The notes under the pieces: generated by a model
What the model was told of the DNA's origin: nothing
The model's database searches: none
Seen by the model: the letters and a program-made list of their open reading frames with translations, nothing else
DNA from: Thiomicrorhabdus sediminis
GTDB lineage: Bacteria; Pseudomonadota; Gammaproteobacteria; Thiomicrospirales; Thiomicrospiraceae
Reading direction: 5' to 3'
NCBI RefSeq assembly: GCF_005885815.1
Contig: NZ_CP040602.1
Location: 1,379,630-1,443,629 of the forward strand
DNA length: 64,000 nt
Part shown: positions 3,767-51,040 of the stretch, one piece after another
How positions within the stretch are numbered: position 1 is the stretch's first letter
Layout of the letters: every line of letters starts with the position of its first letter
Made by a program: the position numbers and the translations under genes

Positions 3767-4675
3767 TTGAAGAACTCCAAACAAGAAGACATTGTCAATA
3801 TTAAGCAACTGCGCTTGGCATTGGATAATGTGCAAGCCTATGTCTATATAAAAGATAAAGACTCTGTTTATCTCTATGCCAATCAATTGACTCAGGAACT
3901 TTTTGGAATAATCAACGAAGAGGTTGTGGGGTTTCGCGATAAAGATTTTTTTCCAACGGAAACCGTTAACAAGCTTAGGCAGATCGATTTAAAAGTCTTA
4001 GCAGGCCACAGCTCCGAAGAAGAGATTGTTATTGATTACCCGGATTTGGGTAAACGTCACTATCTGGAAGTGAAAACGCCAATATACAATGATGACAAAA
4101 CCGAAATAATCGCCCTGCTCGGTATCTCGACAGATATCACCAAACAAAAACAACTTGAGGAGCAGGTTCGTCAACTTGCAATTACCGATCACCTGACTAA
4201 TCTGGCCAACCGCAGACAATTGTTTACTCAGCTCGAACAAGCCTATAACAGAAGTCGACGTCACAATACTTTTGCCGCTTTATGTTATTTGGATTTGGAT
4301 GGCTTCAAAGAGATCAATGACCAACACGGCCACCAGATCGGTGACGATCTGCTGGTGGAAATCGCCAATAGACTGGTTAGCGAAGTCAGAGACATCGATA
4401 CCGTTGCCCGCTTGGGCGGAGACGAGTTTGTCATCTTGATAGAAGATATCGGTAAAGATTTCGACTCCGCCAATAACGCCGTAATAGGGTTTAAACAAAA
4501 ACTGCAGCAAATCATTGATGAACCTTATCTGATCGACGGAAATCCTATCTCGATCAGTGCCAGTATAGGATACGAACTCTTTAACGGAGCTAATGAGGCA
4601 CGCTCCTACAATCAAATCCTAGACGTTGCCGATAGCCGAATGTATGAAGAGAAAAAGCAACGCAAACGCAGATAG
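3767..4675 (+). CDS. PAS-GGDEF diguanylate cyclase
   Basis: 302 aa, no membrane segment or signal peptide seen. A PAS domain (about 15-125) with the PAS-typical YIKDKDSVYLYAN is joined by a short coiled linker to a GGDEF domain (about 137-300). The active-site GGDEF at 217-221 is intact, with the inhibitory RxxD site (RDID, 208-211) five residues before it. It should therefore make cyclic di-GMP from two GTP and be product-inhibited. The start is TTG; no ATG lies before the PAS domain, and a GAGAT sequence sits at a fair distance upstream. The gene stands alone and is closed by the shared terminator at 4721. Confidence 0.9.
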   Translation: MKNSKQEDIVNIKQLRLALDNVQAYVYIKDKDSVYLYANQLTQELFGIINEEVVGFRDKDFFPTETVNKLRQIDLKVLAGHSSEEEIVIDYPDLGKRHYLEVKTPIYNDDKTEIIALLGISTDITKQKQLEEQVRQLAITDHLTNLANRRQLFTQLEQAYNRSRRHNTFAALCYLDLDGFKEINDQHGHQIGDDLLVEIANRLVSEVRDIDTVARLGGDEFVILIEDIGKDFDSANNAVIGFKQKLQQIIDEPYLIDGNPISISASIGYELFNGANEARSYNQILDVADSRMYEEKKQRKRR

Positions 4676-26181: not shown

Positions 26182-26847
26182 ATGAATGTTAGCCAAGCCA
26201 TCAAACAACGTCACTCCTGTCGCGCCTTTACCGAACAAAGCGTTGCTATTGATACCATTAAAACGATTATCGATACCGCCAAATACGCGCCATCCGGTGT
26301 TAATACTCAGCCTTGGCAGGTAGCGGTGTTAAGCGGTGAGAGCAAACAAAAGCTGTCCGAAAAAATGGTCGAGGCGTTTCGCAATAAACAAACCGAGAGC
26401 ATGGATTATCACTATTACCCGCAAACCTGGACCGAGCTCTACAAAAAACGTCGTGTCGCCACCGGTATCAAACTTTATGAAGCCTTGAATATTCAACGAG
26501 AAGATAAAGCGCGTAGATTGACGCAATGGGAAGCCAACTATCGCGCTTTCGATGCCCCGGTGATGTTATTGTTCTTTATCGACAAATCACTCGAGACCGG
26601 CTCTTATCTGGATTACGGTATGTTTTTACAGAACATTATGCTACTCGCCGAAGAACAAGGCCTAGCGACTTGCCCACAAGGTGCTTTAGGAGAGTTTCCA
26701 AGCATTGTCAAAGCGCACTTGGAGATTGCCGAGAACTGGAATCTTTTAGGCGGCATGGCATTGGGTTATGAAGATAAAGAACATCCGGTCAACTCTTATC
26801 GAACCGATCGTGTCGAATTGGAAGAGTTTTGTCAGTTCTTCGAATAA
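26182..26847 (+). CDS. Nitroreductase family flavoprotein
   Basis: 221 aa FMN-dependent, NAD(P)H-using oxidoreductase. The start RHSCRAFTEQSV and APSGVNTQPWQV form the FMN phosphate and ring-binding segments; GLATCPQGALGEFP and the ALGYEDKEHPVNSYRTDR tail are typical of the NfnB/FRP-like fold, which works as a dimer. The substrate is unknown: nitroaromatics and quinones are common activities in vitro. Second gene of a probable thpR operon. Confidence 0.9.
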   Translation: MNVSQAIKQRHSCRAFTEQSVAIDTIKTIIDTAKYAPSGVNTQPWQVAVLSGESKQKLSEKMVEAFRNKQTESMDYHYYPQTWTELYKKRRVATGIKLYEALNIQREDKARRLTQWEANYRAFDAPVMLLFFIDKSLETGSYLDYGMFLQNIMLLAEEQGLATCPQGALGEFPSIVKAHLEIAENWNLLGGMALGYEDKEHPVNSYRTDRVELEEFCQFFE

Positions 26848-27024: not shown

Positions 27025-27504
27025 ATGAGCAAAAAATCAACCCTTAGCAACCTTCAAAAAGCTTTATCAATGGAGTTAACTGCAGCACACCAATATCAGT
27101 TACACGCCAGCGTTTTATCTGATTGGGGAATTGATATCCTCTCTGAACAGATGCGTAAAGAGATGAGCGAAGAGCTCGGACATTCAGACGCATTTATGGA
27201 ACGCATCATGTTCTTGAAAGGCAAACCAGTTCTCAAAATGGCGAATACACCTGTTATGGCGGAATCTCTGGTTCAGATGTTCAAGACCGATTTAGCGGAT
27301 GAAAAAGAAGCGATTAAGTTTTACACCAAAGCCGCACAGCAAGCTGCCGAAGAAGGAGATATCGGAACAAGAACCCTGTTTGAAAAGATCGTCATGGATG
27401 AAGAAGGTCACATGAGCTGGTTAGAACTACAGCTAGACCTAATCAAACGCATGGGTGAGCCGGCCTATATAGCTAAACATATGTCGGCTATAAACAACCA
27501 TTAG
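27025..27504 (+). CDS. Bacterioferritin-like protein without the haem methionine
   Basis: 159 aa four-helix ferritin. Di-iron ligands are visible: E17 in MELTAAHQY, E50 and H53 in SEELGHSD, E93 in DLADEKEA, and E126/H129 in DEEGHMSW. The protein aligns with Bfr over its whole length, including ERIMFLKGKP, but where E. coli Bfr has Met52 for haem binding this one has leucine (EELGH in place of DEMKH). It may therefore store iron without haem or pair with a haem-binding partner subunit. A GGGAG ribosome site precedes the ATG at 27025. It stands alone. Confidence 0.88.
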   Translation: MSKKSTLSNLQKALSMELTAAHQYQLHASVLSDWGIDILSEQMRKEMSEELGHSDAFMERIMFLKGKPVLKMANTPVMAESLVQMFKTDLADEKEAIKFYTKAAQQAAEEGDIGTRTLFEKIVMDEEGHMSWLELQLDLIKRMGEPAYIAKHMSAINNH

Positions 27505-27510
27505 ACATAG

Positions 27511-27694
27511 TTGTGAAGCCCTTTAAAACTTAGACACAACCACTAAGTTAATCTAACGGGCTTCTCCTTACCTTTTCTCGATTCTTCAGCCGAGTTCGTT
27601 GTTTGGTCACTTTATTTGGGCAAACAAATAAAGTAACGTGAAGCCTATTCGGTTCAGCTAAGACAAAGAAAGAAAATTAAAAAAGACTTCGCAA
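27511..27694. mobile_element. Short fold-back element (copy A-short)
   Basis: 184 bases. The left end TTGTGAAGCCCTTTAAAA (27511) is a near inverted repeat of the right end AAAAAAGACTTCGCAA (27694). Near the right side, GTCACTTTATTTG (27606-27618) and CAAATAAAGTAAC (27625-27637) form a 13-bp hairpin with one mismatch, followed by GTGAAGCC. The left 60 bases match the left end of the copy at 50393. It looks like a deletion derivative of the longer element next door. No coding sequence, and no clear target duplication. Confidence 0.65.
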
Positions 27695-27742
27695 CCAACA
27701 CACCAAATTTAATTGTACTCTTATCCTAATTGTCTAAGTTCG

Positions 27743-28304
27743 TTGCGAGGGCTTTTTAATATTTTTAGAACCTTGATTTTATCTAAAGCCCTCACCTTAC
27801 TTTGTTGCTTGTCCAACAAAGTAAGCAAAAAAAGACACCCTGCTCCATAAATAGGCAGGTTCTAAAACTCATTCACTGAAAATCCTGAACTCGCTTCGCT
27901 CGGACAGCAGGATTTTTAATCGTTCATTTCATTAAGAACTCTGCACTATTTATTCCAAAGGGACGAGGTCGTCAAAGTCATTTTTCTTAGACGGTTAAAA
28001 ACCAACCAATCCAAAACCCATGATGAAATAAATGACGTTGAACCAAAATTGAGTGCGAGGAAACGGGTCCCCTTTTGTAAGCAATCGTCATTTCACTTAA
28101 CGTAGGGCGCGTTTAAGAAATCCTGCTGTTTGAGGCGAACTTGTTCGCCGAGTTCAGGATTTTCAGCGAACAAGTTTAGGGAAATAGACTGTGTCAGCAG
28201 GGTGCCCTTTTTGTGGTTACTATTTTTGGGCATGCAAAAATAGTAACGTGAAGCCTATTGGATAAAAATTAAGGCAACGCAAAAAATTTAAAAAGGCTTC
28301 GCAA
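27743..28304. mobile_element. Long fold-back element (copy A-long)
   Basis: 562 bases with ends TTGCGAGGGCTTTTTAA and TTTAAAAAGGCTTCGCAA. Inside each end is a hairpin: CTTACTTTGTTG/CAACAAAGTAAG (27796-27825) on the left, and a GTTACTATTTTTG/CAAAAATAGTAAC hairpin (about 28216-28247) on the right. A second inverted repeat, GACACCCTGCT (27834-27844) and AGCAGGGTGCC (28197-28207), is nested inside. Deeper in, CCTGAACTCG...CAGCAGG (about 27884-27912) is mirrored by CCTGCTGTTTG...GAGTTCAGG (about 28122-28159). Much of the element is thus one imperfect palindrome. It encodes nothing recognisable and is probably a non-autonomous mobile element or structured RNA. Confidence 0.7.
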
Positions 28305-28312
28305 ATAGCGAC

Positions 28313-28969
28313 TCAAGTTTTATTTACAATAAAACCACCGTCAACTTTAGCATTAATTAACGAAGGCACTGAACCATCTTTTGGTACACATACAACCCAC
28401 ACACCTTTGTATTCAGGAGTTTTAATAAAGGTTGCGTGCAACTCTAATAACTCTCTAGCTTCATTAATCGTGCGCTCAATTTCAGAAACAAGGTTTTGAG
28501 GATTTTTATTATTATCCCACGGATTATCAGCATGAAGGAATTTACCAAGTCTGTCGTAGATTTTTACAAAACGTTTATCAGTTAAATAATCGACTGCTTT
28601 TCTATCATAATGCCAAGTACCATCACCTTTTTGTATAGCTGGAATTAAGGGCAAAGGATAAAAATCAACATTTATACGCTTAAGCGCTTGGAGAATGCTT
28701 GAAGCCTTATAATCTTTTTTATAATCATTCTGTTTTTCAGCATTCGATCTGAAAGCTTGGTATGCATTCTTATTTGGAGCAATCGATGCATAAGCAAGGG
28801 CTTCAAGCGCCTTTCTTAATTGAAGGACACATGAATCAAAATCCATTTCATTATTACTTTTTTTATAAGCATCCAGAAATACCAAAACGGCATCACATCT
28901 TTTAGTTACCTCTTCCATTTGCCCGAGATAAATTTTATGTAGTTTTGATTCTGTATTTATCATAGGCAT
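28313..28969 (-). CDS. Hypothetical protein with HEPN-like Rx5H motif
   Basis: 218 aa, not recognised as a named family. It is mostly helical and more AT-rich than its neighbours. An N-terminal helix LRKALEALAYAS (51-62) and a later RLGKFLH (140-146) fit the R-x(4-6)-H motif of HEPN domains, many of which are ribonucleases in toxin, abortive-infection or CRISPR systems. No antitoxin or nucleotidyltransferase partner lies beside it. It starts 11 bases after the dnaE stop without a good ribosome site (ATG at 28969 or 28963), so it may ride on the dnaE transcript. It ends 9 bases from the fold-back element, which suggests an acquired patch. The domain call is inference from one motif. Confidence 0.55.
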   Translation of the reverse strand: MPMINTESKLHKIYLGQMEEVTKRCDAVLVFLDAYKKSNNEMDFDSCVLQLRKALEALAYASIAPNKNAYQAFRSNAEKQNDYKKDYKASSILQALKRINVDFYPLPLIPAIQKGDGTWHYDRKAVDYLTDKRFVKIYDRLGKFLHADNPWDNNKNPQNLVSEIERTINEARELLELHATFIKTPEYKGVWVVCVPKDGSVPSLINAKVDGGFIVNKT

Positions 28970-50299: not shown

Positions 50300-50470
50300 T
50301 TCACAGCCCTAAATAAGATTAAGTAACTATGCCTACTTTAAAATAAACTAGAGATGAATACATCAGAACAAAACGACTTACTTAGAGAATAATTGCGAAG
50401 CCCCTAAAAACTTAGCTACTCCCTCTGTATTTATCTATTGGGCTTACCCTTACTTTGTTGCTTGTCCAAC

Positions 50471-50497
50471 AAACAACGAACTCGGCGAAGAGCCGAG
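50471..50497. repeat. Short module inserted in the copy-B hairpin arm
   Basis: Twenty-seven extra bases interrupt what in copy A-long is a perfect hairpin arm. They end in a palindrome, CTCGGC-GAAGA-GCCGAG (50481-50497), and are flanked by AAA on both sides. A related sequence lies, reversed, in copy A-short (about 27572-27604). Confidence 0.5.
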
Positions 50498-50560
50498 AAA
50501 GTAAGCAAAAAAAGACACCCTGCTCCATAAATAGGCAGGTTCTAAACTTATTCACTGAAA

Positions 50561-50598
50561 CGAAGAACTCGGCTGTAGCGAAGCGGAGAGACGAGAAA
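50561..50598. repeat. Second short module inside copy B
   Basis: About 38 bases absent from copy A-long interrupt CACTGAAA|TCCTGAACTCG. The insert starts CGAAGAACTCGGC and ends GACGAGAAAT, so it resembles the module at 50471 (GAACTCGGC...CGAGAAA). Confidence 0.45.
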
Positions 50599-51040
50599 TT
50601 CCTGAACTCGCTACGCTCGAACAGCAGGATTTTTTCTACCCTCAAGGGGCACCTAGATCGTTCACTTCGTTAAGAACTCTGCACTATTTATTCCAAAGGG
50701 ATTTTTGGTGTCAAAGTCACTTTTCTTAAATCCATTAACTTCCTATTTAAATAAAACTTACGGTGAAATGAATTACTTTGTACCAAAATGGCGTGCGCGT
50801 AACAGGTCCCTTTTGTAAGCTTTCTTGATTTCACTTAGCGAAGGATGCGGTCAAAAATTTTCGCTGTCCGAACGAAGCTTGCGCAGTGAGTTCGGGAATT
50901 TGAGCAGACAAGCTTAGTGAAATAGAAAGTGTCAGCAGGGTGCCCTTTTTGTGGTTACTATTTTTGGGCAAGCAAAAATAGTAACGAGAAGCCTGATAGA
51001 ACAATCCAAGGATATACGAAAGTTCAAAATGGCTTCTCAA

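Follow-up and report, generated by a model that had tools for sequence, protein, structure and literature searches.

The window, a 64,000-nucleotide stretch of the Thiomicrorhabdus sediminis genome, carries three copies of a fold-back repeat. Two of them stand in tandem between a gene at 26182 and dnaE, where the 3′ end of a Dps/bacterioferritin-like gene (27025–27504, plus strand) abuts a short, deleted copy (27511–27694), a spacer (27695–27742) separates this from a long copy of two inverted arms (27743–28304), and a 218-aa gene with no Pfam match (28313–28969, minus strand) comes within 8 bp of the long copy at its 3′ end. The second long copy lies at 50393–51040. As the preliminary description had proposed, all three loci end in TTGNGAAGCC...GGCTTCNCAA-like sequence, reading TTGTGAAGCC (27511) and CTTCGCAA (27694) in the short copy, TTGCGAGGGC (27743) and GGCTTCGCAA (28304) in the first long copy, and TTGCGAAGCC (50393) and GGCTTCTCAA (51040) in the second. 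These terminal inverted repeats are present in nearly all copies, and, as also described, none contains a transposase. The spacer holds a decayed GGGGTCAGAGTAAAATTAA-type end that reads AATTTAATTGTACTCTTATCCTAATTG, the motif that adjoins Y1 transposase genes in congeners.

Each long copy comprises an arm A, a centre of ~100 bp and an inverted arm B, with arms of ~230 bp that contain three hairpins, H1, H2 and H3. In the first long copy, arm A (27743–27985, plus strand) has H1, H2 at 27796–27825 and H3 with the apical loop AACTCGCTTCGCTCGGACA at 27888–27906, and arm B (28039–28304, minus strand) has H2 at 28216–28247 and a variant H3 tip, TGTTTGAGGCGAACTTGTTCGCCGAGTT, at 28127–28154. The second long copy carries the loop AACTCGCTACGCTCGAACA at 50605–50623, a variant loop at 50865–50892 and small palindromic inserts near 50473–50490, 50560–50595 and 50637–50657. 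The strong hairpins and the nested inverted repeat reported earlier are confirmed, with near-perfect 12–13-bp hairpins at both H2 positions of the first long copy, at 50949–50990 and at 27606–27637 (H2 of the short copy), and GACACCCTGCT / AGCAGGGTGCC at 27828–27844 / 28196–28212 and 50508–50524 / 50934–50950. The view of a long copy as nearly one palindrome is too strong, since arms A and B are diverged relatives (about 68–77% alike, against about 72–88% between copies) and the middle ~100 bp has no mirror symmetry. The short copy, first described as keeping mainly its ends, retains H1 and H2 together with portions of arms A and B, and H3 is missing. When each copy was folded, the energies of the long copies fell far below those of dinucleotide shuffles (z −10.5 and −6.2), and that of the short copy did so moderately (z −2.8); the inverted repeats of the long copies likewise exceed chance by a wide margin.

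Palindromic inserts reading GAAGAACTCGGCTGTAGCGAAGCGGAGAGACGAGA and TACCCTCAAGGGGCACCTAGA sit within hairpin loops of the window (50560–50595, 50637–50657) and of loci L081, L086, L092, L093, L097 and L099, as if a smaller palindrome family targeted the hairpin loops of fold-back copies.

Arm anatomy and covariation

The T. sediminis genome (G000; single contig, 2.37 Mb) has nine long and about three short copies, which are mutually 72–88% alike; some of them lie close to one another, near 223 k, 1407 k and 1840 k. Searching with an arm profile locates arms on either strand, and their first position is sharp; in most copies there seems to be one arm of each type, A and B. Each arm itself folds as a hairpin, whose parts are H1 (GAAGCC..GGCTTC), H2 (a 12–13-bp stem with a loop that is mostly CTTGYC), a GGCACCCTGC box and H3. 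The apical loop of H3 is the constant 19-nt sequence TGTYTGAGCGNAGCGAGTT, of which the window loops at 27888 and 50605 are close variants.

The stems covary while the H3 loop stays constant. The RNAalifold consensus of 44 arms has 25 pairs, 16 of them with two-sided compensatory changes. This consensus misses H2 because the length of its stem varies, and H2 was counted separately: across 53 arms there are 28 different stems, with 652 Watson–Crick cells, 0 G:T, 19 A:C and 13 others. The excess of A:C over G:T in H2 (19:0), which comes from few events, may be a sign of strand-specific folding.

Distribution of the fold-back family

Blastn finds matches in 24 of 58 related genomes, all within the same bacterial family, and none for the window copy among plasmids and phages. 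An arm covariance model (R1) matches 43 of 369 class-drawn genomes, in 35 genera; its weakest matches are short and must include some due to chance, and many of the matched sequences, when read, have the same order of parts. The likeness to sequences of other proteobacteria that was noted at the outset is borne out by these matches and by those of the loop.

A scan of 84,980 species genomes for the H3 loop motif returned at least 118 matching stretches, against ~60 chance matches expected in the whole collection (an estimate from motif length), so a test of the stems was required. At least 9 of 12 flanking pairs (G:T allowed) form in 142 of 216 distinct loop matches, taken from genome, viral and class-level loci, compared with 10% of random positions. 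The N position of the loop is free (A53 C47 T34 G8), and the stems are mostly unrelated between taxa. Among 80 hairpins, all 12 of the 12 stem pairs covary (score 0.529 versus 0.204 ± 0.015); these were hand-picked from 144 for good stems, and the stem test on 216 matches gives the less biased figure. In 47 of 139 cases, Bacteroidota loci included, H2 is external to H3, compared with 24 of 400 random windows (6%).

Judged by its loop, the family occurs in Beta- and Gammaproteobacteria, Bacteroidota, Clostridia and others. Inverted loop pairs ~170–275 bp apart are found in Marinobacter, Variovorax, Herminiimonas, Haemophilus, Methylophaga and a Clostridium MAG, and elsewhere single hairpins occur between operon genes. 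In ten related P2-like proviral contigs (L270, L271, L274, L278, L282, L294, L330, L343, L345 and L362) a single arm (H3 and H2) lies between the small-terminase and head-tail-adaptor genes. Contigs L299, L311, L329 and L341, which have a Zot-like gene of the kind seen in filamentous phages, also carry the loop motif. Between the arms of Pasteurellaceae elements (L106, L221, L208) we observed the uptake-signal-like sequence AAGTGCGG. An all-versus-all comparison of 1545 ORFs near the loops, in search of a recurrent neighbouring gene, returned mainly repeats of related phages or hosts. In open-access papers, neither sequence-based nor thematic searches turned up an account of the family. This is a real, widespread and, as far as the open literature shows, previously unnamed fold-back family.

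Neighbouring genes, ends and possible modes of movement

The genes around the elements change from species to species. At the dnaE junction, the homologue of the gene at 26182 directly adjoins dnaE in three relatives and is followed by an unrelated gene in one; the Dps-like gene is absent there in the four relatives read, no homologue of the 218-aa gene lies beside dnaE in 29 relatives (30 genomes with a dnaE match), and in the congener G015 the junction is occupied by a single-arm copy. Between purK and nnrD, arms 3.2 kb apart in genome G021 enclose genes for a phospholipase A1 (PldA) and an LRR-kinase. The same junction is empty in G030, which is 97% identical to G021 in the PurK part compared; G008 has the phospholipase and no arms, and G009 has, with the element, a gene that we take to encode a GIY-YIG type nuclease. 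In G027, gltD is followed by a single arm, then by HEPN-like and Cupin_8 genes, and then by a full element and another arm. The element recurs at gltD, htpX (our own reading of a 298-aa protein), purK/nnrD and dnaE, and the accessory genes that accompany it differ between species. A gene of 132 aa stands beside it in T. sediminis (at htpX) and in G030 (apparently elsewhere), and the neighbouring genes include one of the Cass2 family of integron-cassette proteins. The comparison with empty sites suggested earlier yielded approximate empty junctions only (purK/nnrD in G030, dnaE in relatives), the species being too far apart for exact ones.

We propose, with a probability of about one half, that the repeat is a non-autonomous fold-back mobile element, moved in trans through folded (single-stranded or cruciform) DNA. 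Mobility is supported by copies at many sites with sharp ends, by the gene-bearing copies and, in G015, by the target duplications of single-arm copies. The unit would be the ~230-bp arm with its three hairpins, most copies in the genus being a diverged A and B pair in inverted orientation. Such arms may fold when DNA becomes single-stranded during replication, uptake or repair, or when it is extruded as a cruciform, and a protein supplied in trans would then read the constant H3 loop TGTYTGAGCGNAGCGAGTT, with its core GCGNAGC, and move or amplify the element. Stems could drift freely provided that pairing is kept. Copies are mostly found at gene 3′ ends, and in occasional cases two arms enclose genes.

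The mismatches in the stems bear on the folded state. RNA stems would favour G:U, and in the loop-adjacent stems G:T and A:C are equally frequent (38:51), with no wobble preference; this favours folded DNA, a signal that transcription of either strand would blur. GCGNAGC forms an extraordinarily stable DNA minihairpin for any N, which matches the free N in the loop; a folding program with DNA parameters did not reproduce this triloop. On the loop core and the lack of wobble bias, the ssDNA-folding element that was among the initial suggestions fits at least as well as a MITE.

Flanks outside the arms sort into types, and in other species some of the outer ends read AATAATTGGGGTCAGAGTAAAATTAAA or GGGACGCTACCCTTTTA. 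A TIRYT-type (GGGGTCAG-type) motif is found in 15 of 109 distinct ends in the genus (~14%), compared with about 0.6% of random 80-mers. TIRYT transposases and their GGGGWSAS repeats were named by Di Nocera and colleagues (Di Nocera 2013, PMC3733652). Since part of the outer ends carry the GGGGTCAG-type repeat, the likeliest mover in the genus would be a TIRYT/RAYT-like tyrosine transposase of the Y1 (HUH) type. Congener Y1 transposase genes adjoin the same outer motifs, which form an inverted pair around the gene in L456 (G015) and L458 (G026); only the outer motif was found there, and no arms. Against a Y1 mover, a Y1_Tnp search of T. sediminis returned no Y1 transposase, only one of ~240 broad loci with loop matches has a Y1 gene (~4 kb from the loop), and the TIRYT motifs, where seen, occupy one end per element only. 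A Y1 enzyme is therefore rejected as the local mover in T. sediminis, whose copies, given this absence and their divergence, look old and immobile. In G015, target duplications of 7 bp point to a DDE enzyme and away from HUH, and our leading candidates are Y1 in this genus and DDE in that congener.

A paired ACCAGGCCTGGT beside many ends was considered as a recombination site and rejected, as it is an abundant genome-wide 12-mer. Allowing at most one mismatch, we count 41 occurrences of the palindrome in 218 kb of sequence from the genus that was selected without regard to the element (~0.5 expected, by estimate). They fall at intergenic, terminator and coding (purK) positions (L395–L453, e.g. 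L426:2150–2180, and L143), and the palindrome was not seen in the two T. sediminis loci checked. It is possibly a DNA-uptake or chromosome-organising motif.

The closest competitor, which we nevertheless regard as unlikely, is a classical DDE MITE, in which an IS transposase would recognise terminal repeats outside the arms and the hairpins would be passengers or serve the host. G015 speaks for it: about 40 single-arm copies are present, those read have the terminal repeat TGTAAAAgcTTAGATTTAATCwGACAG at both ends and AT-rich 7-bp target duplications (e.g. CTTTATA, CCTAAAT, GTTAAAA), and at least 6 of 7 flanking bases are identical in 6 of 11 scorable single-arm copies, compared with 4.5% of mismatched pairs. 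However, end scans of G015 and T. sediminis, by spacing of end matches, reveal no apparent autonomous IS with matching ends, and no target duplication is visible at the T. sediminis copies. Furthermore, the outer ends vary by species and conservation of the arm core reaches well outside the genus, whereas MITE families usually show the reverse. The original suggestion of a MITE moved in trans is supported in part, by the sharp shared ends, many sites and lack of an internal transposase, and by G015. It fits less well with the T. sediminis copies, for which no target duplication was found, with the end scans, which gave no IS with these ends, and with those outer ends that match GGGGTCAG-type repeats beside Y1 (HUH) genes and not a classical IS.

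More doubtful is a structured RNA, whose arms would act in transcripts (at mRNA 3′ ends, in stability or processing, or as an sRNA) and spread as repeats. Strong folding with compensatory changes would suit such a role, as would the position of the ends, 58 of the 74 that have a gene within 300 bp facing the 3′ end of that gene. In one Bacteroidota locus, moreover, the catalogued sRNA Flavo-1 (Rfam RF01705) forms an inverted pair (L261:3400–3483 and 4267–4350) around a loop-bearing fold-back element. Nevertheless, no part of the window reaches an Rfam gathering score, and among the proteobacterial loci only four give matches, all far below threshold. G:T is not favoured over A:C in the stems, the arms take both orientations relative to genes, and copy number runs from none to more than 40 between congeners. 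The large structured RNA raised in the preliminary description thus gains no support from Rfam or from the mismatch types.

It is somewhat less probable again that the arms serve as attC-like sites in a cassette system that spans phyla and has so far gone unrecognised. Accessory genes followed by arms, or enclosed between them, would be exchanged at fixed hot spots by a recombinase that acts on folded ssDNA through the GCGNAGC loop. The differing accessory genes at the same sites, the 132-aa gene at two apparently different sites and the genes enclosed in G021 and G027 support this reading, and the many element ends that adjoin core genes oppose it as a general rule. We give least credence to sites for a chromosome-organising or DNA-repair protein, selected, not self-mobile and hitchhiking on gene turnover at hot spots, since occupation of the same hot spots in several species (gltD, htpX, purK/nnrD, dnaE) and a loop constant across phyla would fit, but copy numbers of 0 to more than 40 between congeners and the target duplications in G015 would not.

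Comparison with known repeats and RNAs

A fixed 19-nt loop on covarying stems across phyla implies a shared, unnamed protein that reads folded DNA (or RNA). If mobile, the family would be a phylum-spanning class of non-autonomous elements with an influence on intergenic regions and the capacity to carry genes. Its nearest likenesses include REPINs and BIMEs with RAYT (Bertels & Rainey 2011, PMC3116915; Nunvar 2010, PMC2817692), which are also intergenic inverted hairpin pairs, mostly at gene 3′ ends and with no internal transposase; some enterobacterial REPs have GCGNAGC-like tips (PMC2817692). The arms described here are far longer (~230 bp with three hairpins, against 20–40 bp), combine a constant 19-nt loop with a free stem, span phyla and can enclose genes. 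A GTAG (or CGTC) foot beside a 20–40-bp palindrome is absent from the arm alignments, and T. sediminis has no RAYT gene flanked by the same repeat.

TIRYT or TIRtron repeats (Di Nocera 2013, PMC3733652) share the GGGGWSAS-type outer motif, which lies beside Y1 genes in the genus. In contrast to their placement at both ends, the motif here marks ~14% of ends and one end per element, and the TIRYT repeats as published do not include the arm core. Bacterial MITEs (NEMIS, ERIC, Nezha) are alike in their terminal repeats, lack of coding capacity and many copies, and in the 7-bp duplications of G015, but differ in that no matching IS was found here, the core is conserved beyond the genus while the outer ends are not, and the hairpins are nested. 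Integron cassettes (an ORF with an attC hairpin) likewise place a large folded DNA site beside varying accessory genes, and Cass2 is among the neighbours here; the present arms, however, form inverted pairs, many copies stand beside core genes, and no attC core sites were recognised by eye in the arm alignments.

Flavo-1 (Weinberg 2010, PMC2864571) is linked to the family by the one Bacteroidota locus where its inverted pair flanks an element, yet it is a catalogued sRNA motif, and neither the window nor the proteobacterial loci searched contained it. The fold-back family gives a context to at least one occurrence of this orphan Rfam motif. What distinguishes the family itself, an H3 stem with the loop TGTYTGAGCGNAGCGAGTT and H2 outside it, is present in the window, across the class and more broadly.
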